Positions 11,946-29,126 of a stretch of 64,000 bases of DNA are shown here, one piece after another. Location of the stretch: contig CP143429.1 in the NCBI GenBank assembly GCA_039636775.1, positions 2,914,001 to 2,978,000 of the forward strand, in the 5' to 3' direction. The stretch comes from Micrococcaceae bacterium Sec5.8. Lineage in GTDB: Bacteria; Actinomycetota; Actinomycetes; Actinomycetales; Micrococcaceae. A model generated the notes under the pieces. It searched no databases, was not told the origin of the DNA, and worked only from the letters and a program-made list of their open reading frames with translations. Positions within the stretch are counted from its first letter, which is position 1. Each line of letters opens with the position of its first letter. The position numbers and the translations under genes are program-made.

Positions 11946-14900
11946 TTCAGCTCCCATTGATCAATAATAGTGCCGTGTTCATATGACTTCGGAATAAAGA
12001 CTTGCGGCGTCCCACCTTGGTACACGGTTCCGTCAAGTCCTATCTGGCGCCTCACCGTACCGGCGTACATCGTCGTCCCCGGTGGGAATTCAGCGGTATA
12101 CCCCATGCTGAGTGGGCTTGTACCAGTGATCTCACGGTTCTTGTTGTACCACTCGGGAAGGATCGCTTTGTCCCTTCGCGCCTGAAGGACCGATGTGGGA
12201 GCATCTGCTGACCAAAAGCTACCAAACTCATTCCGATACCCGGCGTCTCCTGCACGCGACAGAACCGACACGTCATGTGAATAACTGGAACGATAGATTC
12301 CGTACTTGAAAGTCTGCCTATCAGCCGCTCCAAGCCATTTCGGCTTGTAGCCGGTGATCCCCCCTGTTGCTGCCCCGACCGCGGCTGCCGTCGACGTTGC
12401 CTGGATGAAGCCGCGTGGCGTGTGGGGGCCCTGCGACATGGCGTAACCGGCGCCCCCACTTACCCCGCCTTCCGCTGCGCCTCCAGCAGCTGCGGTCGCG
12501 GCACGAGCTGCCAGGCCGGCGCCCATTTTTGATGCGACAATCGCCCCAGTGCCAGCGCCCAGCCCTCCCGCGAGGGCTCCGACAGCCGAATCAACCCCCA
12601 CCCGGCCCCAGTCGACGGCTCCCCTGTCGGCCTTCTGGGTTGCAACAGAGATACCACCTGATACAAGGGCGCCAGCGCCCATCATCAGGGCCAGGCCTGC
12701 TGGCCCGCCGACTCCAGTACACATCAGGGCGACACCGGCCACGATCGCGGCTCCGGCGGCAACGTATTCCCAGTTGTCCTTCCACCAGTCTCCGGCCGCG
12801 GCCATAGCGCCGCCGGTCGTGCCGTCATAGGCCCGAAGTTCGTCATCGGTCAGGGGCCTCTGACCGGTGGGGTCGGTGGTGTTCAGCGGGTTGTTGCCCG
12901 CATAGGCGTAAGGGTTGCCGTCCCAACCCGCCCCCAGGATCGGGGCGAGCGGGTCCGTGGACAGGAACCCCTTGGTCAGGGGGTCATAGGCCCTAGCTCC
13001 GAGCCATTCCAGGCCTGCGATGTCCACGCCGCCACTACCAGTCAGGCTGACACCCGCCGGCAGCAACCCGACCGGCCCGGCACCAGCACCGAGTCCGGCG
13101 GAACCTGCACCGGCCATTGCGTCGGGGTTTAGGCCGGGCGAGGGGTCGGGCATGATGGGGGTACCGAGGACCGCCCATGGGTCGGTCTGATCGGTGGGCC
13201 GGGCGGCTCGCCAGCCCGACGCCGTCCAGGCATCCCCGATCCCTGTCACACCACCGGGCAGGGACAGGAGCTGCCCACCACCACCTGCGATGCCGATACC
13301 GGCGGTGCCTCCGGAGCCATCACCAACCGTGCTGGTCGTGATGCCGGTGAGGGTGGGGACGGGGTTCGCGGTGTCCCACCACAGGAGGGCGCCGTCGATG
13401 CCGGCAAGTTCGCCGAGGGCGTCGACCCACAGCTCGTGCCGGGAGGTTTCCATGCCGTCGGGTGTGCGGTCGGCAACGCTCTTCAGCTGGCCGGTCTGGC
13501 CCCATGCGTATTCGGTCCAGGACCCGTCCGCGCCGATGAGCCGGGTCCGCCGGCCCAGCCCGTCATGGACGAACTCCACCCTCGACCCCTCCGGGCCGGT
13601 GACGGCGACAAGTTGTCCCGCGGCGTCGTACTCGTAGGCCCGGGACCCCGCCGGGGTGGCCTCGCGGACCAGGCGTCCACCGGCGTCGTACTCCCACTCC
13701 GACATCACCGACACTGCCTGTGCTGCGGGCCCTTCCGCACCACCAGCCGCGGTGGTGACCGGGGTGGTAGTCGCCGAGACCATCTGTCCGGCACCGTCGT
13801 AGCCGTACCGGGTGATGGTTCCGGCGCGGGTCAGTGCCGTGATGCGGCCGTCGTCGTCCCTACCGATCAGCGTCACATCCGTCCCACCGCCACTGCCCGA
13901 GTTGTCGGTGCGGCTGTGTTCGGCGAGGTTCCCGCCCCGGTAGGCCCATTCCTGGACGAGGTCCCCGGCGGTGGCCGAGGTGAGGCGCCCGGACGCATCA
14001 TGGGTGAACACCGCGTCCCGGAGCAGGGGGTTGGTGACGGTGGTGAGCCGTCCGGCGGCGTCCCGGGTGTAGGTGGTGGTGGTGCCGTGGGCGTCGGTGA
14101 ACGCGGTACGGTTCCCGTCGCCGTCGTACTTCCAGGACAGGCCCTGGCCGCCGCGGGTGCGGGAGGTCAGCCGCCCACAACGGTCAAAGCCGAGTTCGTG
14201 CTCCACGGCCAGCCCGTCAGCAGCCGCACCGGCGCCGGCGTTGCGGGTGTGGTCGGTGATGACGACGCGGCGGCGGAGCAGGTCCCGGTCAATTGAGGCC
14301 AGGAGTTTCCCGTCCACCGAGGTGGTGGCCTCCTGCCCGGCGGCGTCGTACGTCCAGGTGGTGGTGTGCCCGTCCGGGTCCGTCTGGGACAGTTGCCGCC
14401 CGGCAGGATCATACGTCGCGGTGGTCACCCGGCCGAGGGGGTCGGTCACCGCATCGACCAAGTCCGTGGCCGTGTAGGTGCGGGTGGTCACCCCGCCCAA
14501 GGGGTCGGTGATCCGGACCAGGCGCCCGCGGACGTCGTAGTCGAAGAAGGTCCGGCCGCCGACGCCGTTGATGGTCCCGGTCAGTTCCCCGGCGGTGTTG
14601 TATGTGAACCGGCGGGTCCCGTACCAGGTGTCCTGGGAGAAGCTCAGCCGCCCGGCCTTGTCGTAGCCGTACCGGGACACGCCCTGGCCGGGGGTGTTGC
14701 GGGTCAGGAGCCGCCCGCACGGGTCGTACTCGAAGGTTTCGACCTCGCCGGTGGGCAGTGTCCGGGCGGTGACCCGCTGGTCGGCGTCGTAAGCCAGTTC
14801 CGTGACCGCGCCGAGCGGGTCCGTGGTCCGCCAGGGGCGCCCGCACCCGTCGTATTCATACCTGGTGACGGCGCCGGAGGGGGAAGTGATCGAGGTGATC

Positions 14901-17710
14901 TTCCCGGCCACGTCCCGGCCGAGGACCGTCAGGCCGCCTTCACCGTCGAGGAGTTCCACCGGGTTCCCGGCCGCGTCATAGGTGACCAGTTCCGCGGAGC
15001 CGTCCATCCCCTGGACCCGCGTGGGGCGCCCGTACTCGTCAAAGCTGTACGTTGAGGACGCGAACGCGTCCGTCAGGGTCGCCGTGCCCGCCAAACGGTC
15101 GGTCGTGGCGTCCGCGCGGACACCGGTCGGGTCGACGACGGCGGTCAGGGCACCGACCTTGTCGTACTCCCGCACCCAGTCGTGGCCGGCGGGGTCCGTG
15201 ATCCCGACGAGCCGGGACAGCGTGTCGTGGGCGAAGCCCCAGCGGGCACCGTCCGGCAGCACCGCGGCCGTGACGTTGCCCAGCTCATCGAAGACCCGCT
15301 CGATGGCCCGGCCCAACGGATCGATTGTCCGGACCAGTTCACCATTGACGGCGTAATCGAGTTCGGTCCGGCCCCCGTCCGGGGCGATGGACGCCGTCGT
15401 CCGCCCTGCCGAGTCGTGTTCAAAGGCCCGGACGGCGCCGTCCGGGTCCACCCGCCGCACCAGCAGGCCCGCAGCGTCGTAGGTGAAGCGGGTCTCGGCG
15501 CCGGAGGGGCTGAGCGCCGCGACGGGGCGGCCCGCCTGGTCTCGGATGATCCTCGCGACGTCCCCGGCTGCGTTCCGGGTCGAGACCAGGTCCCCGAACC
15601 CGTCGTATTCAAAGCCGACCGCAACGCCGGCCGGGTCTATCACCCGGGCCAGCTGACCGTTCCGCCACTGGAGCTCAGTGCGCCCGCCCAGCGGGTCCAG
15701 GATGACCGAGGGGTCCCGCGACACCTCATCGGCATACTCATACGAGATGACCGAGCCTGTTTCGGTCACCAGGGTGGTGATGCGGTCCTGCTCATCCCAG
15801 CCGTACGTGAGGTCCGCGCCTTCCGGGGTGACTGTCCGGGTCTTCCGGCCCCGCGCGTCGTAGGCATGCACCGTCACGGCCCCGTCGCGTTCCGTGAAGG
15901 ACACCAGGTTCCCGTGGCCGTCATACGCCATCGACTGGCGCTGATCATGGGAATCGAGCACACCCACCAGGCGGCCCTTCGCGTCGGCGATCCAGGAGTT
16001 CGACCGGGAACCGTCTTCATCCGAGACCACCGTGACGCGGCCCGGCAAATACGCGAACCTGGTCCGGCGCCCGTGCTGGGTCACCTGCAGCACAACCCTG
16101 CCGTGCTCGTCATAGGTGTTCTCCGCCTCAACAACACCCGCGGACGAGACCACCGCCTCGATCAGGCCCTGCTCATTCCACCGGTACGCCCGCGCCCCCA
16201 GCTCCGTCGCCACACCCGTCAGCCGGCCTGCGTCGTCATAGCCGTACTCCACCCGGCGCCCGTCCGAGGCCCGCACCACGGCAACGAGCCCGTCCACGTA
16301 CTCCACGTCAAGGAACCGGCCCTGCACATGCGCCAACCGGGTCACCTGTCCCACACTGCCGCCGTCGGCGGGCTTTTCCCGGACCACGGACACCGTCCGG
16401 CCCGGCCCCGACCCGGACCCGAGCCACACGCCCGCGAGGCTGTAGGTCCACCAGCCGCCCTCATTGTCCCGGACCACAAGCAGCTCGACCGTACCCTCCG
16501 GCACGGAGCTTGACTCCCTGAGGTCAGCTGCGGTCGCAGGCTCTGCGGTGAGCCAGTAGTTCTCGCCCACCGCCCGCGCCCAGCCGGACCCCTCACGAGG
16601 AAAATCGACGGCCCGGCCGTCGGCCATCACCCAGCGGCACCCCTCATCCGAGACCGCAAGGTGCTGGTCCAGGACCGAGGCCCACCCCGGGCCAAACACC
16701 CCGGGCACGTCCAGTCCCGAGGCCAAAGAGTTGTACATCCGCGACAAAACCACGTCGGAAGCGACACCGGCAAACCGCAGATCCTCTTCCGGTTCAATGA
16801 AGTTTCCGGTGGCGGTGTTCACGGGGTCGTTTGCGTACCCGCTGGTGGGCATCGCACCGGCCGCCATCGGCGGAGCCACGACCAGCGTGGACCGGCTGGC
16901 GCTGACTCCTGCTGCTGCAAGCGCTTCATTCACGGCCGCGTCCGAGACGGTCGAGACACTGCCCTCGCCCCCGGCGGCCGCAAACGCATCCGCGACAGTG
17001 ACCGCCCACTTCGCGTCGTTCTCGTTGGCCCGTAGATACTCCCGGTAGGCGCTGACCACGCCCGAGGCTTCGATCCGCCCCCAGTAGCAATCGGACGCGA
17101 AATCGGAGAGATGTCCTTCCAGCGCACCTGGGGCTGAGGCCAACCCCTCATCCAAGCCCCGGGAGTTTACCGCGAAAGACCGCAGGCTTTCCGGGCGCGC
17201 CGAGGACGTCCCGCCCCCGTACCCCCCGCCGGGCGGCGGTGTTTCCCGGCTCCCGACGGTGGGAGCTGCCGGTTCGAACGTCGGAGCTTTGCCCGGCGCC
17301 GCGTTCGGCCGGTCTCCCTCACCGAAGACCGAGTCCCAGCCCTTCTCGAACGCGTTACGGTCATTGTGCTCCCGGACCCACTCGTTATTCTTCGCACGCC
17401 GGGTGTCCTCTTCATGCCCGGCCTCGACCATCTGTCCCACGTATCCGGCTACGGTCCGCAGCGCGGTCGCCAACGCTTCCGCGTCCTTGCCCGCGGTGGC
17501 AGCGTTGGAGGCAAAAACCTCAGAGAAATGCCCCTTGAAGTCCTCCTTCGCGGAGGAGACGAACGTCGCCCGCGAACCTGCCTGCTCCTCGAGCTTTGAT
17601 GCCGCCAGCTCAAACGCAGACTTCACCGACCCGGCCACGGCGTAACTGAATCGCCCTCCATCAGAACCGTCTGACGCCGGCAACAGCGGCACCTCAACGA
17701 ACTCGGTCAC
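11942..17710 (-). CDS. RHS/YD-repeat polymorphic toxin, putative type VII effector
   Basis: About 1,922 residues. An N-terminal helical region (about 1-120, with DFKGHF) resembles WXG/LXG-type export domains. A DUF6531-like segment follows (TGNFIEPEEDLRF, about residue 300), then many YD repeats forming the RHS shell (about 480-1560). The core-end motif LGARAYDP is at about 1569, followed by NPYAYAGNNPLN. A hydrophobic Gly/Ala-rich pre-toxin segment (about 1650-1790) leads to a roughly 125-residue tip. The tip contains YRSSYSHDV, FGSFWSAD, YTAEFPPGTTMYAG and GGTPQVFIP. That arrangement recalls NAD-using ART/TNT-type toxins, but the assignment is tentative. The start is GTG at 17710; GTG at 17779 would add a hydrophobic stretch. 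Confidence 0.88.
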   Translation of the reverse strand: MTEFVEVPLLPASDGSDGGRFSYAVAGSVKSAFELAASKLEEQAGSRATFVSSAKEDFKGHFSEVFASNAATAGKDAEALATALRTVAGYVGQMVEAGHEEDTRRAKNNEWVREHNDRNAFEKGWDSVFGEGDRPNAAPGKAPTFEPAAPTVGSRETPPPGGGYGGGTSSARPESLRSFAVNSRGLDEGLASAPGALEGHLSDFASDCYWGRIEASGVVSAYREYLRANENDAKWAVTVADAFAAAGGEGSVSTVSDAAVNEALAAAGVSASRSTLVVAPPMAAGAMPTSGYANDPVNTATGNFIEPEEDLRFAGVASDVVLSRMYNSLASGLDVPGVFGPGWASVLDQHLAVSDEGCRWVMADGRAVDFPREGSGWARAVGENYWLTAEPATAADLRESSSVPEGTVELLVVRDNEGGWWTYSLAGVWLGSGSGPGRTVSVVREKPADGGSVGQVTRLAHVQGRFLDVEYVDGLVAVVRASDGRRVEYGYDDAGRLTGVATELGARAYRWNEQGLIEAVVSSAGVVEAENTYDEHGRVVLQVTQHGRRTRFAYLPGRVTVVSDEDGSRSNSWIADAKGRLVGVLDSHDQRQSMAYDGHGNLVSFTERDGAVTVHAYDARGRKTRTVTPEGADLTYGWDEQDRITTLVTETGSVISYEYADEVSRDPSVILDPLGGRTELQWRNGQLARVIDPAGVAVGFEYDGFGDLVSTRNAAGDVARIIRDQAGRPVAALSPSGAETRFTYDAAGLLVRRVDPDGAVRAFEHDSAGRTTASIAPDGGRTELDYAVNGELVRTIDPLGRAIERVFDELGNVTAAVLPDGARWGFAHDTLSRLVGITDPAGHDWVREYDKVGALTAVVDPTGVRADATTDRLAGTATLTDAFASSTYSFDEYGRPTRVQGMDGSAELVTYDAAGNPVELLDGEGGLTVLGRDVAGKITSITSPSGAVTRYEYDGCGRPWRTTDPLGAVTELAYDADQRVTARTLPTGEVETFEYDPCGRLLTRNTPGQGVSRYGYDKAGRLSFSQDTWYGTRRFTYNTAGELTGTINGVGGRTFFDYDVRGRLVRITDPLGGVTTRTYTATDLVDAVTDPLGRVTTATYDPAGRQLSQTDPDGHTTTWTYDAAGQEATTSVDGKLLASIDRDLLRRRVVITDHTRNAGAGAAADGLAVEHELGFDRCGRLTSRTRGGQGLSWKYDGDGNRTAFTDAHGTTTTYTRDAAGRLTTVTNPLLRDAVFTHDASGRLTSATAGDLVQEWAYRGGNLAEHSRTDNSGSGGGTDVTLIGRDDDGRITALTRAGTITRYGYDGAGQMVSATTTPVTTAAGGAEGPAAQAVSVMSEWEYDAGGRLVREATPAGSRAYEYDAAGQLVAVTGPEGSRVEFVHDGLGRRTRLIGADGSWTEYAWGQTGQLKSVADRTPDGMETSRHELWVDALGELAGIDGALLWWDTANPVPTLTGITTSTVGDGSGGTAGIGIAGGGGQLLSLPGGVTGIGDAWTASGWRAARPTDQTDPWAVLGTPIMPDPSPGLNPDAMAGAGSAGLGAGAGPVGLLPAGVSLTGSGGVDIAGLEWLGARAYDPLTKGFLSTDPLAPILGAGWDGNPYAYAGNNPLNTTDPTGQRPLTDDELRAYDGTTGGAMAAAGDWWKDNWEYVAAGAAIVAGVALMCTGVGGPAGLALMMGAGALVSGGISVATQKADRGAVDWGRVGVDSAVGALAGGLGAGTGAIVASKMGAGLAARAATAAAGGAAEGGVSGGAGYAMSQGPHTPRGFIQATSTAAAVGAATGGITGYKPKWLGAADRQTFKYGIYRSSYSHDVSVLSRAGDAGYRNEFGSFWSADAPTSVLQARRDKAILPEWYNKNREITGTSPLSMGYTAEFPPGTTMYAGTVRRQIGLDGTVYQGGTPQVFIPKSYEHGTIIDQWELK

Positions 17711-17970: not shown

Positions 17971-18252
17971 TTAGGCGCCGCCGCCGGCGGAGAAAATGTC
18001 CTGCGAGATCTTCTGCAGCTGGGTCCGCAGCTCCTCGAGTTCCTGGCGGGCCTTGTCCAGCGCCGCCTTCGTCTCCGGCCACGTGGACCCGCGGAACTGC
18101 GTAGCCAGCGGACCGTCCCAGATATTCGGATCCGACAGGATCTTGCCCTGCGCATCCAGCGCCGAGATCTGATCCGTGAAACCACCATTGATGATCGACT
18201 GCACCTGCCCGATGGCAGCCTTCGCTTGCTCGGTTGACAACACACGCGACAT
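17971..18252 (-). CDS. WXG100-family protein, likely secretion partner
   Basis: 93 residues, the normal WXG100 size, with a predicted helix-turn-helix hairpin and the turn motif WDG (in NIWDGPLATQF). It ends in a Gly-rich tail (AGGGA). ATG at 18252 is preceded by GGAGG at seven bases. ESX/WXG100 proteins form dimers and are exported by, or guide export through, type VII secretion ATPases. It precedes the RHS gene by 260 bp on the same strand and is divergent from the EssC operon, so it is the obvious partner for the RHS effector. The 260 bp gap contains no convincing gene. Confidence 0.88.
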   Translation of the reverse strand: MSRVLSTEQAKAAIGQVQSIINGGFTDQISALDAQGKILSDPNIWDGPLATQFRGSTWPETKAALDKARQELEELRTQLQKISQDIFSAGGGA

Positions 18253-18319
18253 AGAAATTCCTCCCAAAAGAAACCGCTTCCCCGCCGGACACATGATCGT
18301 CGGCGAGCGAACGATGCTG

Positions 18320-18348
18320 ACGCTACCAACAGATGCTAATAAATCCAA
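18320..18348 (-). promoter_or_regulatory. promoter of the WXG100-RHS operon
   Basis: -35 TTGGAT (18343-18348) and -10 TAGCGT (18320-18325) with a 17-base spacer, giving a leader of about 60 bases before the WXG100 ATG. It is nearly repeated at 10239-10267, which supports it being functional. The divergent operon may use TATCAT at 18443-18448 as a -10, but no good -35 is visible there. Confidence 0.55.
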
Positions 18349-18481
18349 CAAAAAGAAGAACCAGGATGGCTCGGCATGTCGGCGAAGGCCACACGCCCGC
18401 AACCCGGAGGCCAAGATTAGTCCATTCGCGAGCGCAACCCAGTATCATGCTGAAGGCACCGTGAACAGAAGAGGGACGATT

Positions 18482-21340
18482 ATGCCCAGACTGACCCATA
18501 CCCACCAGCGCACCCTGGCGCGCAGCAGCACCCCGGGCCGCGCCATAAGCGCAGTCATCGTCTCCTTGGGGCTGGTGGCGTCGACGTCGTGCACTCCAAC
18601 TCCCGAAGCTGCGCCGGTATCCAACCCTGTCAAGCTCCTGCAGAACGTGCGGGTAGGCCTTTCCGCTGCCGCAGGAGTCGAGACTGTAGAGGGGACCACC
18701 ATCTCTGTCTCCGCAGCGGGCGGTTCCTCCGCAGAGGACGCGAAGTACGACACCGCCCAGGTGGTGGGTGAACTCCCGGTGCGTGTGAGCCTGCAATACC
18801 GGGCGGGGTCAAAGTCCGGCTCAGATCTCGCCGAACTGCAGGGCCACACCGGGCCGGTCGAAATCAATGTGACGCTGGAAAACCTCACGGTCAAGCCGCG
18901 GGTCATTGAGTACGACGCTGCGGGCCAGACACGTTCCGACACGGCCCTCGTCGGCGCCCCGCTGACCATCGCAGCCTCGACGAAGCTCGACGGCGTACGG
19001 GCAGACCACGTCACGGCAGGCTCTGCGGATGGCGCCACGGGCACCAACGGTGTCCTAAGCAGCACCGAGGATGGCGCAGCCGTGGTGCAATGGGCGACCA
19101 TTCTGGCCCCGCCGCGTTCGGGCGCAAGCACCACCCTGCGCCTCGTGGCCGACGTCGAAAACTTCAAGGTCCCCGCGTTCGACGTAGCAATCCAGCCGGG
19201 CCTCAACACGGACCTCAGCGCAGATGGAGTCCTCAACGGCGCCTTTTCGTCCGGCACCGGCTCGGTACTGGAGCTGCAGCGCCGAACCATCACGCTGGTC
19301 TCGGACATCAACACTGTGCTGACCCAGGCCGGATCCACTATTACCGACGTCCGGCGGAACCTGCAGGTGACCTCGCAGACAGTGGGCGCGAAAACGGCGG
19401 GCGAGCTGCGGGACAATTCCCAGGCGCTGGCCGCGACCATGTCAGGGCTCAAGGACCAGCTGAAGACTCTCGGCGCTGATTTGGAGTCCGCAACGACCAC
19501 AACGCAGTCAGCTACCGCGGCGCAGTTGAAGCAGACCGTTTCCGCTGTGGACGCGATGCTGGGAGACACGTCGGCCGTGCCCGCGACGGCCCCCATCAAC
19601 GGCGAGGGCTGCTCCGCCGAAGTCCCCAAGTCCGAGAAGGCCGCCACGGTGTACTCGAGCGTCGTGACCATGGCCTCACAGCTGGACGCCTACGCGAAGG
19701 TCAGCGCGGGCTGCCGGGACATTGTTGCGGGCGCCATCAAGGCCACCATGGGGCCCGAGGACCCCACCGCGGTGGAATGCGCAGAGCAGGGCTCCATGAC
19801 GTGCTCGCTCTACGGATCAGCCATGAGCGTCACTGGAGCGCTGCTGGGGCTGGTGGAGACGGGTGATGAGCTCGTGGCGGACCTGCAGCCGCAGGTCGTC
19901 GAAGGAGCAATCAAAAACCAAGAGGCCTCAACCCTCGAACTGGAGCGGGTCCGCGCCGGCTTTGCCGTAATCCTCGACGGCGCCGATACCCCCGAGGACT
20001 ACGAGACAGCGCTGGCGAAGGTGGACAAGGCGATGAAGTCCGTTCGGGCCTCCGTTGCCGCAACCCGGGATGCAGCCACCGCAGCCCGCGACAGCATCAA
20101 AGGGCTGCGGCAACAACTGATCGACATCGACGAGACTGCGCAAAGCGCCCGGAGCGAGCTGGGTGACGGCTCGCTGCTGAAGGGCTCGATGATGCAACAA
20201 AACCAGCGGCTCGCGGACGAACTCTGCAAGATGGCGGACGCCGGTCTCCCTGCCCCAGGCCGGCTATCGGCCGAGGACGTGGCGCGGCTGCGCGCCTACC
20301 TGACGTCCGCTCCCTGCGGGCCCACCCCTGAGAATGAAAACCCGGCCCGGGCAGTGAAGCTTCCGACCGGGTTTAAGGATCCGTTGGACGTCCGGCTGAA
20401 ATCCCAGTCGGAGGCATGGGACACGGCCCTCGCGGCCACTGACACGGCTGACCAGGACCAGGCGATCGGCAAGGCGTTCACTACCCTGGAGGCGAGTATC
20501 GGCGACATCGACGCGAAACTGGATGCAGTCGACGACGCTGCGAAGGCCCTTGACCGGGCGGCTACAGGCAATGCTGCCGGCACAAAGCGCGGGCTCGAAA
20601 CCCTGGCGGCTGCGCTGGGTAAAGCCATTGAATCCTCCGGCCAGGTGGGCGCAACACTGGCGAAGTTGAAGGTGCAGCAGGACGGGCTCGGCGACAAGAT
20701 CAAGGAGTCCCTCCGCGACGTCTCGGCTGATACTGCGGCCGAGGTCTACAAAACCGTGGGCGAGCAAGTCCGCCAGGTGGCCGAGATCGGTGACGCGGGT
20801 TCAGACTCCGTGATCACCGCTTTCAACCGCTCCATCTCCGGCTTGAAGTCCACCTCCGACGAGGTGGTAGGTGACGCCGGGGGCACAGTGGACAAGCAGC
20901 GGGGCGAATTGTTGGAGCAGAGCGGCGCCCTGGCCGCCTCCCTGGCCAAGACCACGCAGTCCTCGCTCGCCAGCATCGCTTCGAGCACGTCCGGTTCAAC
21001 GCGGGACGTCGAGGGCGCGAACGCGCTCCTGTCCTCCAGCCTCAACAAGGTGATGCTTGACCTGGGCGACCGCTCGGTGAACGGATCCGGTCTGCTCGGC
21101 TCCATGGCTACCAACGCCGCCAAAGCCGATACAGCCGACTACCAGCTGGCGCTGGCCTCCCAGAACGCAGAAGGTTACGCCAACATCAGGTCCCGCGATG
21201 TTGCCGGGTTGCTGCTGCGTCAGGCGCAGTTCAAGGCCTCACTCACCGCGATCGATGAACTGCCGCCGTTCCACCTCGAGGTGCCGGCCGGCGCGACATC
21301 CCAGACCCTGTACACGCTGAAGATCGGCGGCACCGAATGA
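18482..21340 (+). CDS. extracytoplasmic long-helical protein of the T7SS-like operon
   Basis: 952 residues. The N-terminal signal sequence (about 1-36) ends VASTSC, a loose lipobox, so it is probably a lipoprotein or otherwise secreted. A beta-rich region (about 40-270) is followed by some 650 residues of Ala/Asp/Thr-rich predicted helices and coiled coil, with Cys pairs near 380-440 and 580-620. There is no second membrane segment. The helical part resembles the extracellular stalk of YueB/EsaA or phage-infection-protein types in general character, without the flanking membrane helices. ATG at 18482 has AGAGGG upstream. It overlaps the next gene as ATGA. Function is not recognised; a role in the export apparatus is inferred from the operon. 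Confidence 0.75.
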   Translation: MPRLTHTHQRTLARSSTPGRAISAVIVSLGLVASTSCTPTPEAAPVSNPVKLLQNVRVGLSAAAGVETVEGTTISVSAAGGSSAEDAKYDTAQVVGELPVRVSLQYRAGSKSGSDLAELQGHTGPVEINVTLENLTVKPRVIEYDAAGQTRSDTALVGAPLTIAASTKLDGVRADHVTAGSADGATGTNGVLSSTEDGAAVVQWATILAPPRSGASTTLRLVADVENFKVPAFDVAIQPGLNTDLSADGVLNGAFSSGTGSVLELQRRTITLVSDINTVLTQAGSTITDVRRNLQVTSQTVGAKTAGELRDNSQALAATMSGLKDQLKTLGADLESATTTTQSATAAQLKQTVSAVDAMLGDTSAVPATAPINGEGCSAEVPKSEKAATVYSSVVTMASQLDAYAKVSAGCRDIVAGAIKATMGPEDPTAVECAEQGSMTCSLYGSAMSVTGALLGLVETGDELVADLQPQVVEGAIKNQEASTLELERVRAGFAVILDGADTPEDYETALAKVDKAMKSVRASVAATRDAATAARDSIKGLRQQLIDIDETAQSARSELGDGSLLKGSMMQQNQRLADELCKMADAGLPAPGRLSAEDVARLRAYLTSAPCGPTPENENPARAVKLPTGFKDPLDVRLKSQSEAWDTALAATDTADQDQAIGKAFTTLEASIGDIDAKLDAVDDAAKALDRAATGNAAGTKRGLETLAAALGKAIESSGQVGATLAKLKVQQDGLGDKIKESLRDVSADTAAEVYKTVGEQVRQVAEIGDAGSDSVITAFNRSISGLKSTSDEVVGDAGGTVDKQRGELLEQSGALAASLAKTTQSSLASIASSTSGSTRDVEGANALLSSSLNKVMLDLGDRSVNGSGLLGSMATNAAKADTADYQLALASQNAEGYANIRSRDVAGLLLRQAQFKASLTAIDELPPFHLEVPAGATSQTLYTLKIGGTE

Positions 21341-22680
21341 GCTCCCGCAGCCGGCTGATTGCCCTTATCATTGCGGGCGTCGCGGCCGTCGTCGTGGTTG
21401 CGATCGTCCTGACAGTGACGCTGAACCGCCCAAAGGAGGCTTCCCGGCCCGATCCTGTTGCCGCGACGGTTCCCGTAGCGCTGAAGGCCGACGGCTTGCC
21501 GAAGGACTTCTCGATCGGAGTTGTCCTTACTTTGGGCCGGTCCGGCGAGCCGGGTTCGGAACACAACCGCTCGGCACAAGGCGCGATTGTTGCCGCGCAG
21601 CGCTTTGCCCGGGGCGGTTCCACACTCAGCTTGTCAGCCCAGAATGACCGGGGCACGGAGGATGGCGCAAGCGCCGCCGTACGGGCCCTCGCCGAGCAGG
21701 GAGCGTCCGGCGTCATCGTGACAAGCACGGGGCCGCAGGCCCTGGCCGCGGCAAAAACTGCCGAAGAGCTCGGGCTCCCGGCCATCCTGCCCTACGTTGA
21801 ACCGTCGGACCCCGCGCCGACCACCTGGACCACGCGCCCCTCGGGAGCGTCCGTCGAAACTGCCCTACGAACTGCCCTGACCGGCAAGAACAGGGTGCTG
21901 CTCGTAGAAGACGGCGGCCAGATCCCCGCATCAGTTGCCATCTCGCAAACACTGAGCCTTAGCGGCTTCGAAGAAGTGACGGCCCTGGCCCAGGAGGCCG
22001 CCATCAGAACCGGCGACCAGCTGCGCCCGGCGGCCGAAGACGCCCCGGCCGGCGCCGAGTCGACCAGGGTTGCCGAGCCCGCTGACGCCGTGGTCGTCTC
22101 GGCCGCCACGCCGCAGAGGCTGGCCCGGCTGGTCCAGGCCCTGCAGTCCCGCGACGTATCCGTGCCCCTCATTCTTCCGGAGGGCGCCACAACTCCGGCC
22201 TTCGCCTCCTCGCTCGCCGAGCTCGACGGCACCGCGTCCGGCCAACTGGTCAGCGTTGCCCCCGCCGGCGGCGATGCCACTGCGCTGCAAAAAGATGCCC
22301 AGGGGCGGGGTATGTCCGCCTTCCTCTCCGCAGTGCGCCTGGTGTCCGGCGACCCCGCAATTAAGAACCTAAGCGACGACGCCCCCTTCTCCGCCGACGC
22401 CTGGGCTGCGGACGCACGCAGCCACGACGCCGTCGTCGCCCTGGTGCGCGCGGGCGCTGCGGCTGGGAGCGGTGATCCGTCCAAGGTGGGCGCAGCCCTC
22501 CGCACGCTATCGTTCGGCCCCGGTGACGGCCTTGCCGGGCCGGAGCTGGACTTCTCTCGCGCTGCCGCGCTGAGCGCAGAGACCATCCCGGTGTACGCTA
22601 CCGCGCAGGACCTGGGCCTCCGCCCGCCGGACGAGGCAGCTCCCCGCCTCGTCTGGGTACCGGCGCCGGCAAGCCCTTGA
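21337..22680 (+). CDS. membrane-anchored periplasmic-binding-fold protein
   Basis: 447 residues. One N-terminal membrane helix (about 6-28) anchors an extracytoplasmic domain whose layout (FSIGVVLTLGRSGEPG at about 58, SGVIVTSTGP at about 128, LGLPAILPY) matches the Leu/Ile/Val-type substrate-binding fold (Peripla_BP_6). Such proteins normally serve ABC importers, but no permease genes are here. It sits between the coiled-coil protein (ATGA overlap) and the EssC-like ATPase, so it may have been adapted as a sensor or structural part. Ligand unknown. Confidence 0.72.
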   Translation: MSSRSRLIALIIAGVAAVVVVAIVLTVTLNRPKEASRPDPVAATVPVALKADGLPKDFSIGVVLTLGRSGEPGSEHNRSAQGAIVAAQRFARGGSTLSLSAQNDRGTEDGASAAVRALAEQGASGVIVTSTGPQALAAAKTAEELGLPAILPYVEPSDPAPTTWTTRPSGASVETALRTALTGKNRVLLVEDGGQIPASVAISQTLSLSGFEEVTALAQEAAIRTGDQLRPAAEDAPAGAESTRVAEPADAVVVSAATPQRLARLVQALQSRDVSVPLILPEGATTPAFASSLAELDGTASGQLVSVAPAGGDATALQKDAQGRGMSAFLSAVRLVSGDPAIKNLSDDAPFSADAWAADARSHDAVVALVRAGAAAGSGDPSKVGAALRTLSFGPGDGLAGPELDFSRAAALSAETIPVYATAQDLGLRPPDEAAPRLVWVPAPASP

Positions 22681-22744
22681 TCGTCCTGTCCCGTCCTGCC
22701 GCTGTGCGGGCGGGGCGCCATGTCCCCACGGAAGGAACGCCCTG

Positions 22745-25700
22745 ATGCGCGTGCTGATCGACTTGGATGAGCGTCGCTTTGAGTGCGAGGTAGCCCACGC
22801 CGCGCCGTCCACTACGCTCTCAGACTTGGTGGAGGCCGCCGGCGGCCCGCGGCTGGCGCCCGATGAGGCAGTGTTCCTGAACGAAGCCGAGGTGCGGGGC
22901 TCCACCCCAGTTTCTGAGCTGATCGTCCTGGAAGGCAGCCGCATCTCGCGAACGCCGTGGCCAATCCCAGAGCGTGTGCGGGACTGGAGCGTGACGCTCG
23001 CCGGCGGCCAGCGAACCGGCGGTGTCATTGCCGTTCCGCCAGGGCGCGACATGCTCATCGGCCGGTCTCCGCATGCCGACCTGAGCCTTCCCACCGAGAG
23101 CGCGTCGTGGGACCACTGCCGCCTTCGCCGGGAGGAGGACGGGCTGCGGGTCCTGGACGGGGGGTCCACGAATGGCACTCTCGTCAACGGCGAGCCGGTG
23201 AATGAGGACGGCACCCTTGTCACCGAGACCGCCACGATCACCGCCGGCGGCACCGTGCTCCTCCTGCGCCGGGCTCTGGACGAGACTTCCGCCCCGACGC
23301 CGGGAAGCCTGCATAACCTCACGCCGGCGGCGACAGCCCCCTTCAACCGCCCTCCCCGTCCCGGGCAAGCCCCGCTAGGCGACCCTTTGTTGCCACCGAG
23401 CCGCAGCGAAGTGCCTCCGGCCGGCAAGTTCAACGTCATCACGGTACTGGCGCCTCTCGTCATGGCGGCGGCGATGGTGGTGATACTGCGGGATTTGCGC
23501 TTCGCAATGTTCGCCATGCTTAGCCCTGTGATGGCCGTAGGTATGTGGTTCGAACAAAAGCGACGATACGCCCGGGGCCTGAAAGAGGAGGAAGAGCGCT
23601 TCACCAGGGCGCTCGAGGAATTCGAGCAGCAGGTCCGCACGGCCGCTGCGGCGGAGACTGGGCGGCGCCATCGGCTGATCCCCGATCCCGCCACCGTCGT
23701 CCGGCGCGCGTCCCTGCCCACCACGTCCCTGTGGCAGCGCCGCGCAGACTCTGAGGACTTCCTCGCTCTCCATGCGGGCACAGGCGACGTGCCGTGGCAT
23801 CCCGAGATGGATCGCAATGCCGGCACGCGCCTCGATGAGAAGGTGAAAGACTCCCTCGCGGCGGCACGCCTGCAGTCGGCGCCCGTGCTGGTTGACCTGA
23901 CAGACGCCGGGGTGGTGGGCATGGTGGGCCCTCGGGAAGGTGTACTGGCACTCGCGCGCTCCCTCCTGGCCCAGGCTGCGGTGCACGTTGGTCCAGCTGA
24001 TCTGACAATCGGCGTCTTCTGCGACGCCGGGCGCGCCGACGAGTGGGAGTGGGCCTCGTGGCTGCCGCACACCCGCCAAGCCGGCAGCAGCACAGGCGAG
24101 CGGTGGATGTCCGCGCACCGCGAGACGAGTCTGGCCATGCTGCGCACGCTCAAGGACAGTGTCCAGGAGCTGCCCACGCCGGCGATGTTGGTAGTCCTGG
24201 ACTCCGAGGTGCTCACGGAGGGCAGGGATTCCCCGGCGCGCGCGCTTCTCGGCGTGGGCCGCTCCGTGCCAGGGGCCCACATCAACCCGCAGCAGCGTCA
24301 CTCCCGGGTTGCGGGCATTGTCATCGCCACCTCAGAAGAGCAACTGCCGGCCTCCTGCACCACGATCATCCGGGTGGGGGCGGACGCTGCGGCCACTGTG
24401 GACCAGCCGGAGACCCTGACCCGGGTTGAGGACGTCATCCTGGCGGGCCTCGACCAGGAGGAGGCCCTTCGTTGCGCGATGAACCTGGCTCACTTTGATG
24501 ATCCGGAGTTGAGCGTACCTGGTGCCTCGCTGCCCTCGCTGGTCCGGCTCCCCGGGCTGCTCGGCTACGAGCGCCCGGACGCCGCGACGGTCCGCCGCCT
24601 GTGGCAGGCCCCTACGGGAGTTTCCACACCGATAGGCGCCGGGGAAAATGGGCCCCTGACCCTTGACTTGGTCAAGGATGGCCCCCACGGCCTGGTCGGC
24701 GGCACGACCGGATCCGGCAAGTCCGAATTCCTGCGCTCGCTCGTGGCCGGCCTCGCGGCACGCAACGATCCGACGCGCCTGAACTTCATCCTGGTCGACT
24801 TCAAAGGCGGTGCGGCTTTCAAGGCCTGTGAGCGCCTCCCGCACACCATCGGCACAATCTCCAACCTGGACGAACAACTCGCCGACCGGGCCCTCCGCGC
24901 GTTGGAGGCGGAGATGGAGCGGCGCCAGCGTGTGTTTGCCGGGGCCGGCGAGGGCGTGGACAACCTGAACGCTTATCTGGCGACAAACCCGGCCGAGCCC
25001 ATGCCCCGGCTGCTGCTGGTGATTGACGAGTTTGCCATGCTGGCCAAGGACTTCCCGGATGTGCTGAAAGCATTGGTCAGCGTGGGTGCCGTGGGCCGCA
25101 CCCTGGGTGTGCACATGATCCTGGCCACCCAGCGCCCGGCCGGCGTCGTCAGCGACGACATCCTCGCGAACACGAACCTTCGGGTTGCCCTGCGCGTGCA
25201 GAGCCGCGACGACTCCAACAACGTCATCGGCGTGCCCGCCGCCTCGGCGATCGGGCGGGCCCAGATGGGCCGCGCCTTCGTGAAGCTGGGCCAGGACGAC
25301 ATCACCCCAGTACAGACCGCCCTTGTCACCGGACAGGCACAGCTTGAAGGCGGCGCCACGGTAGAGGTGCGTGGGATCCGCCAGTTCGGCGTCCCCGTGC
25401 CGGCGGCGGCGGCGCCACGGTCTACGGACGCGGACGACAACGACTTGGATCTTCTCATCGACGCGGTGATCGAAGCCAACACCGAAGCCGGGTACGCCCG
25501 GCCCCGGCAGGTCTGGCCGGAAGCCCTCGGCGAGCGTGTGGAGCTGGCAGGTTTCCTCCCTCAGCCGGACGGCGGCGGCCCTGCTGCGCCTTCCGGCGCT
25601 CCCGCCGACCCCGAAGCCTGGAACCTGCCGATCGTAGGCGCCGTGCGGGACTCGTCTGTCCTGGTGTCCATCGTGGACGAGCCGGATCTGCAGCGCCAGT

Positions 25701-27064
25701 CGGCGGCGGGATGGGACATGTCCGTGGGAAACCTGATGCTCCTGGGCGTAGCCGGCTCCGGCACGAGCACCACGCTGGCCTCGATCGCGTTGACGCTTGC
25801 CAGAGACGTTGATCCGGCGGAGCTCGATCTGATGATTCTCGATATGGGCTCCCGTGAGCTTGAACCACTCGAATCCCTGCCACACACCGTGGCCTATGTT
25901 GGAACGGGTGCCGGCGCCAAGGAGCAGCAGGCCCGCTTCCTGCGGCACTTGCACACCGAACTGGAGCGCCGCCGCGCCGAACCCGGCCAGCACCGCCGCA
26001 CGGTGGTGCTGCTGGACGGCCTGGCCTCGCTGCGGGATGAGTTCCAGGATTTCGAAGGGCAACAACTGCTGGCCTTGCTGTACAGCGCCTACGCGGACGG
26101 CCCCGCGCTGGGACTTTCGTTCGCTGTCTCCACCACACGCGCCAAGGCGGTGCCCTCGGCCATGAACGAGGTGACGCTGCAGAAGTGGCTCTTCCGGCTG
26201 GCGGACACCTACGACTACTCCTCGCTCGGTGTCCGCGGCAAGGAGATCCCTGCGCCGCTTCCCGGCCGTTGTGTGGACCCCCGCACCTCCCTCCAGATGC
26301 ATGTAGCCACGCCCGGCGTCGGGATGGCCGCCGCGGTGGGCCGTGTCCGGCAGCGCTGGGCGCACGTACCGGCGAAGACTGCGGCCATCAGGCGCCTGCC
26401 CGGCAAAGTCACGCTGCCGGAGTTGGGCGTCGGCGCCAGGCTGGAGGGCGAGCCTTGGCTTATACCGGTGGGGTTGTGTGAGTCGGACCTCTCCCCTGCG
26501 TTCCTGGAGATTTACGAGGGTGAGCACGCACTGATCGCCGGGCCAGCCCGATCGGGCAAGTCCACACTGCTCCTGGCCCTGGCCGCAGCGGTGCGTGGCG
26601 CGGCCACGTCCCGGGGACCGGCGCAGGTGTGGGGCATCTGCGATCGTCGTTCGTCGTTGGCCGCCGCCGACCTGGACCGCGTGGCCGTCGGCGCGGATGA
26701 GGTGCCCGCTTTGCTGGCTGCCTTGCGCCTCGAGCGCGGGACGGTGTTCCTGCTGATTGACGACGCAGAGCGCTTCGAAGACGCCGATCAATCCATCTCG
26801 GGGGTGGTGGCGTCCGGCCGGCCGGGGCTGTGTGTCATCGCTGCCGGACGGGCCGCGGATCTCCGCGGCCTGTACAGTCACTGGACCAAGACGCTCCGCA
26901 AATCCCGCCTGGGCGTGCTTCTGCAGCCGGATGTAGATTACGACGGCGAACTGCTGGGGGCTGTTCTTCCCCGCAAATCGCCCGTGGCGCTGACTGTTGG
27001 GCGAGGCTATATCGGGGTAGGCGGACAAATGGCACTCATCCAGTCAATGAGCCCCGAGGGTTAA
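22745..27064 (+). CDS. EssC/EccC-type FtsK/SpoIIIE ATPase with FHA domain
   Basis: 1,439 residues. Residues 1-70 look like a ubiquitin-like beta-grasp domain. An FHA domain follows (about 80-170; GRSPHADLS and STNGT), then two membrane helices (about 232-268) and three FtsK/SpoIIIE modules. Module 1 has intact Walker A GGTTGSGKSE (about 651) and Walker B LLVIDEFAML. Module 2 has GVAGSGTST (about 1001), where the Walker lysine is replaced by threonine. Module 3 has GPARSGKST (about 1264) and FLLIDDAE. This is the motor of type VII secretion, closer to EssC in domain order. ATG at 22745 follows GGAAGGA. Its neighbours supply the likely substrate (WXG100/RHS) and a kinase. Confidence 0.9.
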   Translation: MRVLIDLDERRFECEVAHAAPSTTLSDLVEAAGGPRLAPDEAVFLNEAEVRGSTPVSELIVLEGSRISRTPWPIPERVRDWSVTLAGGQRTGGVIAVPPGRDMLIGRSPHADLSLPTESASWDHCRLRREEDGLRVLDGGSTNGTLVNGEPVNEDGTLVTETATITAGGTVLLLRRALDETSAPTPGSLHNLTPAATAPFNRPPRPGQAPLGDPLLPPSRSEVPPAGKFNVITVLAPLVMAAAMVVILRDLRFAMFAMLSPVMAVGMWFEQKRRYARGLKEEEERFTRALEEFEQQVRTAAAAETGRRHRLIPDPATVVRRASLPTTSLWQRRADSEDFLALHAGTGDVPWHPEMDRNAGTRLDEKVKDSLAAARLQSAPVLVDLTDAGVVGMVGPREGVLALARSLLAQAAVHVGPADLTIGVFCDAGRADEWEWASWLPHTRQAGSSTGERWMSAHRETSLAMLRTLKDSVQELPTPAMLVVLDSEVLTEGRDSPARALLGVGRSVPGAHINPQQRHSRVAGIVIATSEEQLPASCTTIIRVGADAAATVDQPETLTRVEDVILAGLDQEEALRCAMNLAHFDDPELSVPGASLPSLVRLPGLLGYERPDAATVRRLWQAPTGVSTPIGAGENGPLTLDLVKDGPHGLVGGTTGSGKSEFLRSLVAGLAARNDPTRLNFILVDFKGGAAFKACERLPHTIGTISNLDEQLADRALRALEAEMERRQRVFAGAGEGVDNLNAYLATNPAEPMPRLLLVIDEFAMLAKDFPDVLKALVSVGAVGRTLGVHMILATQRPAGVVSDDILANTNLRVALRVQSRDDSNNVIGVPAASAIGRAQMGRAFVKLGQDDITPVQTALVTGQAQLEGGATVEVRGIRQFGVPVPAAAAPRSTDADDNDLDLLIDAVIEANTEAGYARPRQVWPEALGERVELAGFLPQPDGGGPAAPSGAPADPEAWNLPIVGAVRDSSVLVSIVDEPDLQRQSAAGWDMSVGNLMLLGVAGSGTSTTLASIALTLARDVDPAELDLMILDMGSRELEPLESLPHTVAYVGTGAGAKEQQARFLRHLHTELERRRAEPGQHRRTVVLLDGLASLRDEFQDFEGQQLLALLYSAYADGPALGLSFAVSTTRAKAVPSAMNEVTLQKWLFRLADTYDYSSLGVRGKEIPAPLPGRCVDPRTSLQMHVATPGVGMAAAVGRVRQRWAHVPAKTAAIRRLPGKVTLPELGVGARLEGEPWLIPVGLCESDLSPAFLEIYEGEHALIAGPARSGKSTLLLALAAAVRGAATSRGPAQVWGICDRRSSLAAADLDRVAVGADEVPALLAALRLERGTVFLLIDDAERFEDADQSISGVVASGRPGLCVIAAGRAADLRGLYSHWTKTLRKSRLGVLLQPDVDYDGELLGAVLPRKSPVALTVGRGYIGVGGQMALIQSMSPEG

Positions 27065-27143
27065 CCCCGGCGGGGGGCGCCCACACGGAAGTCGTGGCCG
27101 GGCTGACTTGAAGAATCAGATGGACGAAGCTGGAGGACACGGG

Positions 27144-29126
27144 ATGCAAATCGCACAGACGGGACAGGCGCTGGGAGCGTCGTACCGCTTCGGCGAACGG
27201 GTGGGCTCCGGTGCCGTGGGCGATGTTTGGACCGTCACCTCGGCCGACGGTCAAACGTTTGCGGCCAAGGTCCTGCGGCCGGAGCATGCAGATGATCCTT
27301 CGCTCGTGGAACGGTTCGTCCGTGAGCGCTCCGTGCTGCTCGGGCTCCGGGACCCCCACATCGTGACGGTGCGCGACATGGTGGTGGAAGGCCCGCGGCT
27401 GGCTATCGTCATGGACTATATCGCTGGCGGATCCCTGCGTGACGCGGTGAAGGAAACCGGCCCGCTGCGTCCCCTGGATGCGCTCACCGTCACCGCCGAA
27501 GTGTTCGACGCATTGGCTTTCGCCCATGCCCGGGGTGTGACGCACCGGGACATAAAGCCGGACAACGTGCTCCTCACCCGGCCGTGGCCCGAGTGCGGCG
27601 TGGGCGACGTTCGGGTCTCTGACTTCGGCATCTCCAACGTGGTGGGCGAACGGATCCGTCAGACCACCGGCCTCATCGGCACCCCGCTGTACATGCCTCC
27701 CGAGCTCATCAGTCGGGGCCTGTCCGGACCGCCAGGGGATGTGTACTCAACCGGCGTCATGCTCTATGAGCTCCTCGCCGGGCGCACTCCTTTTGCCGGG
27801 CCGGGAACGGATTTCAGCGTCGCTTACCGCCACGTTTCCGCGCGCCCGCCGAGAATCCCCGTCGACGATGCGGTGTGGGACGTACTTGATGGGCTGTTGT
27901 CCAAAGACCCCGCGCAGCGCCCGACCGCGGCCGAAGCTGCGTCGACACTCCGGCGTCTCGCGCCACGTCTTGCCGGCAGCGCTGCCATCGCCCGGGGGGA
28001 AGCCCCCGCTGACTTCGCCGCCGTCGACCGCCCCGCGACTGTGGTCCGGGGCGCTTTCTCGGAGGAGGAACTCGCAGCCTTGGCGGCGCCTCCTCCCGCC
28101 GGAGACGGCGGGGAGGCTCCGGAACTCGGGGAAGCGGGCAGCGCGACGATCGCCCGTCCAATCCCGCGTCGCGTGGTGCGGCCGCTGGCGGAAGTCCGGC
28201 CCGAGGAAACCTCTGCCGTCCCTTTCTGGCGCACGCGCAAAGCCCTGCTGCTCGCCGGCACCGCTGGCCTTTTGCTCGTAGCGATGGTTGTCGGGTTCGC
28301 TGTCCTGGCACCGGGAAACCAGCAGAACGCGCCTGCGGCCGCCGGCGAACGGCTGTCCGCGCAGTTGCAGGACACCGCCCTTCCGACGGGCTTGACGATT
28401 TCGCGTGCGGCCTCCTACGAGCCCTCTTCCGGTCAGATCCGGTTGACCATCGCTTATGCGGCACAGAAGGCCCCGTTGTCCGGTGATTTCCTGGAGGTAA
28501 TCCCCGGACTGGCCGGTGGGGACGCGTGCCCGGCGGCCTCATGGGACGGGTCGTCAGTGAGCCGGAACCAGCCCTCGATCACCGGTCTCGACGTAGAGTG
28601 CGGCTGGAAGGTGTCAGGACTGGAGATCCCGGCAGGAGGTTCCGTCCAGGTGACCGCGACCGTGCCGGTATCACCCGCAGATCAGAAAGCGCTCGACGCG
28701 TGGCTGCGTGCCGGGTCCGGGACGACGACCACCGCGACGCAGGACCCGGCCGTCAAGAGCACCGAATATCCAGTGCAGCGGCTGAAAGGCGTGGAGGTGC
28801 GCACTCCGACACGCGTGGTGACGCCCAGCCCGCTGAAGATCACCCTGGTTCCGGTCTGGGCCGGTGGCGCCGACGAGCTGAACCCGATGTACGTGAGTCC
28901 GACGTCCGGCAAGCCCTCGCAGATGCTTGTGGCGGTAAGCGGCGGCGAAAAGGGGGTGCGGTTCTCCGATGGCTGCGGCGGGGCGCTGGCGGTCGACAGC
29001 GCGGGGCTCACCGTAACGGCCCTGCAGATCACGCCTCAGTGCACCGTGCGTGCCAGCGTCGGTAACTTCACCGAGTTGCAGTCCCAGAGCTTTGGCATTA
29101 CTTCACGCGAAAATTCGCAGGACTGA
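27144..29126 (+). CDS. transmembrane Ser/Thr protein kinase (PknB-like)
   Basis: 660 residues. The Hanks-type kinase domain (about 10-280) is complete: Gly-rich loop GSGAVG (21-26), lysine in AAKVLRP (42), catalytic HRDIKPDN (about 133), DFG in VSDFGIS, and activation segment GTPLYMPPE. After a linker there is one membrane helix (about 368-392) and a 265-residue extracytoplasmic region without PASTA repeats that I can see. ATG at 27144 follows GGAGGACACGGG; TTG at 27108 and ATG at 27120 are weaker. The FHA domain of the preceding ATPase binds phosphothreonine by family habit, so this kinase probably regulates the secretion ATPase. Confidence 0.9.
   Translation: MQIAQTGQALGASYRFGERVGSGAVGDVWTVTSADGQTFAAKVLRPEHADDPSLVERFVRERSVLLGLRDPHIVTVRDMVVEGPRLAIVMDYIAGGSLRDAVKETGPLRPLDALTVTAEVFDALAFAHARGVTHRDIKPDNVLLTRPWPECGVGDVRVSDFGISNVVGERIRQTTGLIGTPLYMPPELISRGLSGPPGDVYSTGVMLYELLAGRTPFAGPGTDFSVAYRHVSARPPRIPVDDAVWDVLDGLLSKDPAQRPTAAEAASTLRRLAPRLAGSAAIARGEAPADFAAVDRPATVVRGAFSEEELAALAAPPPAGDGGEAPELGEAGSATIARPIPRRVVRPLAEVRPEETSAVPFWRTRKALLLAGTAGLLLVAMVVGFAVLAPGNQQNAPAAAGERLSAQLQDTALPTGLTISRAASYEPSSGQIRLTIAYAAQKAPLSGDFLEVIPGLAGGDACPAASWDGSSVSRNQPSITGLDVECGWKVSGLEIPAGGSVQVTATVPVSPADQKALDAWLRAGSGTTTTATQDPAVKSTEYPVQRLKGVEVRTPTRVVTPSPLKITLVPVWAGGADELNPMYVSPTSGKPSQMLVAVSGGEKGVRFSDGCGGALAVDSAGLTVTALQITPQCTVRASVGNFTELQSQSFGITSRENSQD

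Follow-up and report, generated by a model that had tools for sequence, protein, structure and literature searches.

The window examined here, a 64,000-nucleotide stretch of the genome of Micrococcaceae bacterium Sec5.8, a soil bacterium of the Arthrobacter group (C1:2914001-2978000 of a single contig of 3.87 Mb, CP143429.1), contains six genes in a divergent arrangement. On the minus strand lie genes for a WXG100-like protein and an RHS protein, and on the plus strand genes for a long lipoprotein (LIP), a periplasmic-binding-fold protein (PBP), an FtsK-type ATPase with a ubiquitin-like (Ubl) and an FHA domain, and a transmembrane Ser/Thr kinase. This gene set is co-inherited, with a conserved domain make-up and conserved catalytic and FHA residues, in a genome in which no EccB, EccD or EssB was found. 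It is likely that the six genes constitute an additional subtype of the type VII secretion system (T7SS), standing beside the described T7SSd and dedicated to the presumed export of WXG100 proteins and RHS-type toxins.

An earlier note on this DNA had described a WXG100 gene followed by a gene for a 1,922-residue RHS protein, divergent from an operon of the other four. All six genes are present, and where it had placed them, except that the RHS gene lies outside the interval 17971..29126 assigned to the module. The reading frames of LIP and PBP overlap by 4 bases and the following gaps are of 64 and 43–79 bases, so that the LIP-PBP-ATPase-kinase genes likely form a single operon.

In keeping with the same note, the operon is conserved together with WXG100 and RHS genes. 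A close ATPase (85–100% identity) occurs in 18 of 150 genomes of the genus, the host included, most of the others having only paralogues of about 31–37%. Among the 17 other genus loci with a close ATPase, 14 have all six genes in an identical layout; the remaining three (L106, L111 and L113) end at contig boundaries, with the genes present as far as the contig reaches. The six genes are also found, in another order, on two plasmids of Rothia terrae, the kinase being inverted and relocated, with identities to the window of 58% (ATPase), 72% (WXG100), 47% (kinase), 33% (PBP), 32% (LIP) and 41–48% (RHS core).

A wider scan covered 79 named-species loci (from the best 80 of 589) and Rothia terrae. 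Thirty-six loci have an ATPase of about 44% identity or more, the window and L156 (same proteins as L157) being excluded; near relatives are among them, so each count refers to loci rather than to independent events. Thirty of the 36 have both LIP and PBP and six have neither. The order LIP-PBP-ATPase on one strand is kept in 30 of 30 LIP-bearing loci, and 28 of these have a kinase with a matching ectodomain, in three placements (14, 7 and 7); one of the two without it is a contig end. LIP, PBP and the kinase ectodomain were found in none of 44 more distant ATPase loci. A WXG100 gene lies within about 10 kb of 18 of the 30 LIP-bearing loci. For the other 12, 11 genomes were searched in full (L171 was left out) and 10 carry WXG100 elsewhere (75–85% identical), the one genome without a match being a 1.5-Mb Rothia assembly; altogether, 28 of the 29 LIP-bearing cases examined, genomes or loci, have a close WXG100. 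Over 28 loci (L192, with no kinase found, was omitted), the four operon proteins LIP, PBP, ATPase and kinase have correlated pairwise distances (rho 0.91–0.97, exceeding 500 permutations), which fits joint descent, interaction not being proven by these distances alone. The operon and its neighbours, six genes in all, form a co-inherited module.

One alternative, which we regard as highly improbable, is that of an RHS toxin island whose secretion operon has decayed, or is mere cargo, and has ceased to function. Patchy occurrence within the genus (18 of 150 genomes) would suit such an origin, as would orphan RHS fragments near a second RHS gene of the host, a two-frame ATPase in G595 (L120) and a two-frame LIP in Nocardioides ungokensis (L192), the last two being either broken genes or sequencing errors; against it, the frames are intact in the window and in most relatives, and protein identities of 32–89% across several families, with catalytic residues conserved, argue for selection.

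Conventional T7SS parts were sought with positive controls. EccB (PF05108) and EccD (TIGR03920) were each found in 0 of 8 genus genomes, the host among them (controls 5 of 5), and EssB/YukC (PF10140) in 0 of 11 genomes (Bacillus subtilis control positive). No conventional ESX or Ess locus was found elsewhere in the host genome, EccE, MycP, EsaA, EssA and a separate EsaB not being searched genome-wide. These searches uphold the earlier description of a T7SS-type module without EccB, EccD or EssB homologues. The accompanying statement that only the ATPase and WXG100 are recognisable holds as regards those three proteins and fails for the ubiquitin-like component, since residues 1 to ~72 of the ATPase are ubiquitin-like and related to YukD and EccD.

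The absence of any EccB/EccD/EssB system to export the WXG100 protein also bears on another explanation, namely that the operon encodes an envelope-stress or signalling complex under the control of phosphorylation and that the neighbouring WXG100 and RHS proteins are exported otherwise. The same WXG100 accompanies the ATPase across families and classes, LIP-less genomes included, and we regard a signalling complex as unlikely. Kinase, FHA and PBP are nevertheless typical signalling parts, and WXG100 is remote from the ATPase locus in some genomes. Moreover, another Ubl-FHA-ATPase (about 31%) is clustered at L057:2719-12131 and L121:2829-11832 with FHA and kinase genes, then a DNA-ligase-like gene, the L057 cluster also having a PP2C-like gene. 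Clusters of this type occur in many genus genomes and were not found in the host genome; no WXG100 was seen among the called genes of the two stretches.

The ATPase, related over its full length to T7SS ATPases, matches FtsK_SpoIIIE (165.9 bits) and FHA (43.8 bits) and combines a transmembrane (TM) segment near residue 227 with FtsK domains, as expected of the EccC/EssC type. Solved T7SS ATPase structures were matched (4nh0, 234 bits; YukB 9qks, 211 bits), and the first and third FtsK domains retain GSGKS or RSGKS. Scores are below the cut-offs of the T7SS models (EssC 465.2/778.4, EccCa 387.7/509.15 and EccCb 240.6/346.55 bits). In a tree of 48 sequences (973 columns, FastTree local supports), three clades each have a support of 1.0, namely EccC, EssC with a coriobacterial protein, and an actinobacterial Ubl-FHA lineage of 37 sequences. 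The last contains a T7SSd subclade of 6 (1.0) and a window subclade of 24 (0.98). By tree and score cut-offs, the window ATPase is classed as neither EccC nor EssC. One group of 16 (0.77) takes in every sampled LIP-bearing locus, together with B. apri and Propioniciclava; as these two have no LIP genome-wide, loss or replacement occurred within the group.

The N-terminal domain (residues ~1–72) is predicted to form a strand-strand-helix-strand-strand-strand fold, with a mean pLDDT (predicted local distance difference test) of 89.8 over 185 residues. HHalign comparison with EccD N-termini gave probabilities of 93.8–94.1 with the wider actinobacterial family and 88.9 in an independent alignment; the window clade against the wider family gave 97.4, EccD against YukD 24.4 and 23 control slices at most 0.7. 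Searched against the PDB, the Ubl profile matched a redesigned ubiquitin (7.6e-7), and more members matched YukD (4 of 27, the window's own ATPase not among them) than any other Pfam family. The profile matched 37 of 37 clade ATPases, 17 of which had built it, and 6 of 6 in the T7SSd-like subclade, all outside the profile (L206, L208, L212, L218, L237 and L219; E 1.8e-4 to 3e-12); in L219, of T7SSd type, the match is partial (31 residues, E 1.8e-4). At E<1 there was none among 8 EccC, 2 EssC and the coriobacterial ATPase. An EsaB/EccD-like part is thus probably built into the ATPase as an N-terminal Ubl domain, and its fusion to an FHA-ATPase is a further arrangement. The Ubl-like N-termini of the T7SSd-like subclade may be the ubiquitin-like part that T7SSd was reported to lack.

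Within the FHA domain, G106, R107, N143 and G144 are invariant over 34 sequences and S121 and H124 are conserved in at least 90%; we take these to be phosphothreonine-binding positions. Solved FHA domains matched include phosphothreonine readers.

Eight further subtypes, T7SSc–j, were named in 2024 by Garrett, Higginson and Palmer, several of them being outlined in that paper with a transmembrane Ser/Thr kinase and an FHA-ATPase (PMC11217815). The earlier note had compared the module only to ESX and Firmicute systems, a comparison now outdated, and the kinase and FHA-ATPase are not unprecedented. T7SSd is the sole added subtype given there for Actinomycetota, with TsdA, C, D, H and I and no ubiquitin-like gene (PMC11217815). 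RHS toxins are included in the T7SS cargo described in PMC3482391. No published description of the present gene set was found, subscription papers and the supplements of PMC11217815 lying outside the search.

T7SSd (Olsenella, Bifidobacterium) is the nearest subtype so described, and the module could conceivably be T7SSd itself, with LIP and PBP as diverged TsdI and TsdH, which we judge to be improbable. According to the published outline the two have in common the phylum, a WXG100, an FHA-bearing FtsK ATPase, a transmembrane Ser/Thr kinase, an adjoining RHS gene and the lack of a separate ubiquitin-like gene (PMC11217815); both ATPases belong to the one lineage of 37 (support 1.0), and the partial Ubl match in L219 is a further likeness. 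The envelope proteins differ, however. As outlined there, TsdH has one TM segment and a short unstructured part and TsdI is an immunoglobulin-like (Ig-like) protein of 1,654 aa with a C-terminal TM segment, whereas the lipoprotein LIP has a helical body and neither an Ig-like Pfam match nor a C-terminal TM segment, and PBP has a periplasmic-binding (Peripla_BP_6) fold, not a short tail. The outer part of the T7SSd kinase is described as helical; that of the window kinase has its own conserved sequence, and the window RHS protein has its own N-terminal module. L219 (Bifidobacteriaceae), assigned to T7SSd by composition (O. uli being absent from the tree), has all five T7SSd parts, including a protein of 1,849 aa with Ig-like domains, a signal peptide and a C-terminal TM segment, yet no LIP, PBP or window-type kinase ectodomain at the locus and no LIP in the genome. 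Its ATPase (L219:9269-13834) is 30% identical to that of the window and falls in the other subclade (support 1.0).

Other subtypes are less similar. T7SSb (Ess/Yuk, Bacillota) resembles the module in its FHA-ATPase, a kinase-type membrane protein (the pseudokinase EssB), the long extracellular EsaA, one WXG100 and polymorphic toxins, but the window module has no PF10140 EssB match, its kinase motifs are intact and its FHA phosphothreonine residues are kept. EsaB is separate in T7SSb whereas Ubl is fused to the ATPase here, and the window ATPase scores under the EssC cut-off and lies in another clade. T7SSa (ESX) shares the phylum, an FtsK-type ATPase and WXG100, but EccB and EccD were not found here, the locus has a single WXG100, and the ATPase is of another clade; unlike the window ATPase, 8 of 8 tested EccC proteins gave no Ubl or FHA match. 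T7SSc and T7SSe share a kinase with a T7SS ATPase, WXG100 and RHS or other toxins, but are outlined as systems of Bacillota with a separate TsxB and a PPM phosphatase (PMC11217815), neither of which was seen at the window locus.

The lipobox cysteine of LIP is aligned across 15 genus orthologues with an available N-terminus and in Rothia, and C37 is near-invariant among 40 sequences. The AlphaFold2 (AF2) model has a beta domain at residues 45–240 (pLDDT mostly 80–90) and long helices up to residue 926, after which a final strand rejoins the beta domain. LIP has 211 homologues at E <=0.001, and among the 120 matches listed the named ones are from Micrococcaceae and Microbacteriaceae and mostly "hypothetical"; it is 99% identical to a protein recorded for an unclassified Arthrobacter. 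No NCBIfam match was found for LIP, an EsaA-like fold comparison was run on a low-confidence model, and protein P0003 gave no match to solved structures. By analogy LIP may be likened to EsaA as an envelope-spanning part, following what PMC11217815 says of TsdI and EsaA. PBP matches Peripla_BP_6 (35.3 bits, cut-off 31.7) and has one TM segment. The kinase matches Pkinase (167.1 bits), with HRD in 28 and DFG in 29 of 29 sequences; its ectodomain had no Pfam match.

The assignment of the WXG100-like protein is the weakest family call of the six genes, though it shows a W-x-G motif (NIWDGPL) and conservation among relatives is strong. The RHS protein has RHS repeats (371.8 bits), DUF6531 (73.8 bits), the RHS core end and a variable C-terminus, as polymorphic toxins do. 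Its N-terminal part and core are 68–82% identical in 14 genus loci, whereas the last 305 residues align no further than residue 125 in 12 of the 14, as far as 187 in L120, and over their whole length only in L105, at 41%. Such divergence is expected for polymorphic toxins; the C-terminal region matched no Pfam or NCBIfam family above cut-off.

The N-terminal ~150 residues form a module of their own. It is encoded by a distinct open reading frame (ORF; 158–180 aa) next to WXG100 in Solirubrobacter and two Actinoplanes (L190:1604-2083, L191:16638-17111 and L193:20188-20727), where an RHS gene without it follows; the separate module carries W-R-G where that of the window has F-K-G. In L178 and L188 the module heads ORFs lacking the RHS core. 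It thus fits a putative T7SS export domain, occurring either fused to the toxin or as a protein apart.

A second intact pair lies 41 kb away (C1:2884887-2891177; L133:3888-10178), with a WXG100 identical at 92 of 93 positions and an RHS protein of 75% identity, which diverges from that of the window after about residue 1731 of the open frame and has a different C-terminus. Orphan RHS fragments adjoin the second RHS gene (L133:2011-3192). As no second ATPase of the window kind was found in the host genome, one ATPase would serve two RHS toxins, and the duplication of WXG100 along with RHS suggests a partnership of the two.

Features of the module in the window; start codons were refined for LIP (18482, from the lipobox), RHS (17710) and WXG100 (18252).
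Feature	Position	Strand	Basis or remark
Candidate immunity gene, small ORF, ~109 aa	11616..11945	-	Overlaps RHS stop codon (ATGA); role suggested by position only
RHS polymorphic toxin, 1,922 aa	11942..17710	-	GTG start at 17710; open frame begins 17779; RHS_repeat, DUF6531, Rhs_assc_core
RHS variable C-terminal toxin region	11945..12586	-	Alignment break against genus loci and against second RHS
RHS N-terminal helical module, candidate export domain	17240..17710	-	Hidden Markov model matches in other loci; no Pfam match
WXG100-like, 93 aa	17971..18252	-	PF06013 17.7 bits (cut-off 27.3); conserved relatives
Intergenic region between divergent units, 229 bp	18253..18481		Sequence
LIP, long lipoprotein, 952 aa	18482..21340	+	Lipobox; beta domain and long helical insertion (AF2 model)
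PBP, single-TM-anchored periplasmic-binding-fold protein, 447 aa	21337..22680	+	Peripla_BP_6; TM near residue 2
Ubl-FHA-FtsK ATPase, 1,439 aa	22745..27064	+	FtsK_SpoIIIE, FHA, tree, structure matches
ATPase ubiquitin-like domain, residues ~1-71	22745..22957	+	Profile comparisons and prediction
ATPase FHA domain, residues ~82-180	22988..23284	+	FHA family match; presumed phosphothreonine-binding residues conserved
Transmembrane Ser/Thr kinase, 672 aa	27108 (TTG; ATG alternative 27144)..29126	+	Pkinase; TM near residue 377

The small ORF at 11616-11945 matched no Pfam or NCBIfam family above cut-off. Elsewhere in the host genome, an orphan WXG100 (C1:645291-645542; L131:9265-9600; 61.7 bits, over the cut-off) lies beside groEL and a two-component system, and a large FtsK-type protein (C1:2731227-2732795; L005:12446-16915), 35% identical to the window ATPase over part of its length, is encoded beside a whiB-like gene.

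Several observations weigh against a dedicated secretion subtype. Plain vertical descent would equally yield the correlated distances. Six genomes with ATPases of 44–60% identity have no LIP anywhere, so not every related ATPase needs it, and B. apri, Leucobacter, Solirubrobacter and two Actinoplanes have related ATPases along with the same WXG100 and RHS-type toxins but no LIP. The earlier proposal of LIP and PBP as substitutes for the usual membrane subunits is for that reason unproven. A PBP (P0004) search of 198 genomes of the order gave a strong match only in the host genome and four weak ones. The LIP model is of low confidence (mean pLDDT 65, pTM 0.35), and the Walker A motif of the second FtsK domain has no lysine (GSGTST, residues ~1000–1010). 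The Ubl domain of the window's clade alone compares weakly with EccD (HHalign probability 28.4), and fold searches with the Ubl-FHA model were taken up by FHA domains, their outcome bearing on that domain only. WXG100 scores 17.7 bits with PF06013, under the cut-off of 27.3, and the RHS N-terminal module gave an HHalign probability of 1.6 against the WXG100 profile. Export, hexamer formation, switching by phosphorylation and what LIP and PBP do are, moreover, deduced from gene content.

If the module is nevertheless a secretion system, a hexamer of the FtsK-like ATPase would be its motor, with the N-terminal Ubl domain filling the role of EsaB or of the EccD Ubl domain, and WXG100 together with the helical N-terminal module of RHS would provide the export signal. 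Autophosphorylation by the transmembrane kinase, or its phosphorylation of a partner, may provide a phosphothreonine for the ATPase's FHA domain to read, which would place assembly or activity under a phosphorylation switch. Outside the cytoplasm, LIP would be a long stalk, anchored in the outer leaflet, that guides the toxin through the wall, and the TM-anchored PBP an envelope or ligand-sensing subunit; together they would make up the extracytoplasmic part.

A bolder version, which we put forward only tentatively and consider doubtful, is a self-contained, signal-gated subtype beyond T7SSa–j, with a motor-fused Ubl domain, an active kinase and phosphothreonine-reading FHA gate, and a LIP stalk and PBP receptor forming a wall-crossing channel that would sense a ligand before RHS firing. 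The fused Ubl domain would then date back to the ancestor of all actinobacterial Ubl-FHA-ATPases, which would explain T7SSd without a separate ubiquitin-like gene.

Should a dedicated subtype be confirmed, the T7SS of Actinomycetota would comprise more than ESX (T7SSa) and T7SSd, and a machine of few parts, with an active kinase and a candidate receptor, would be present in Micrococcaceae, Microbacteriaceae, Promicromonosporaceae, Propionibacteriaceae, Nocardioidaceae and Actinomycetaceae (families by record titles), its toxin probably aimed at rival bacteria. Harmless soil bacteria would then offer a small, genetically complete system for asking which envelope parts are essential to a T7SS, what it requires a ubiquitin-like subunit for and whether secretion is turned on by phosphorylation, and the fused Ubl domain might account for the ubiquitin-like protein not found in T7SSd.

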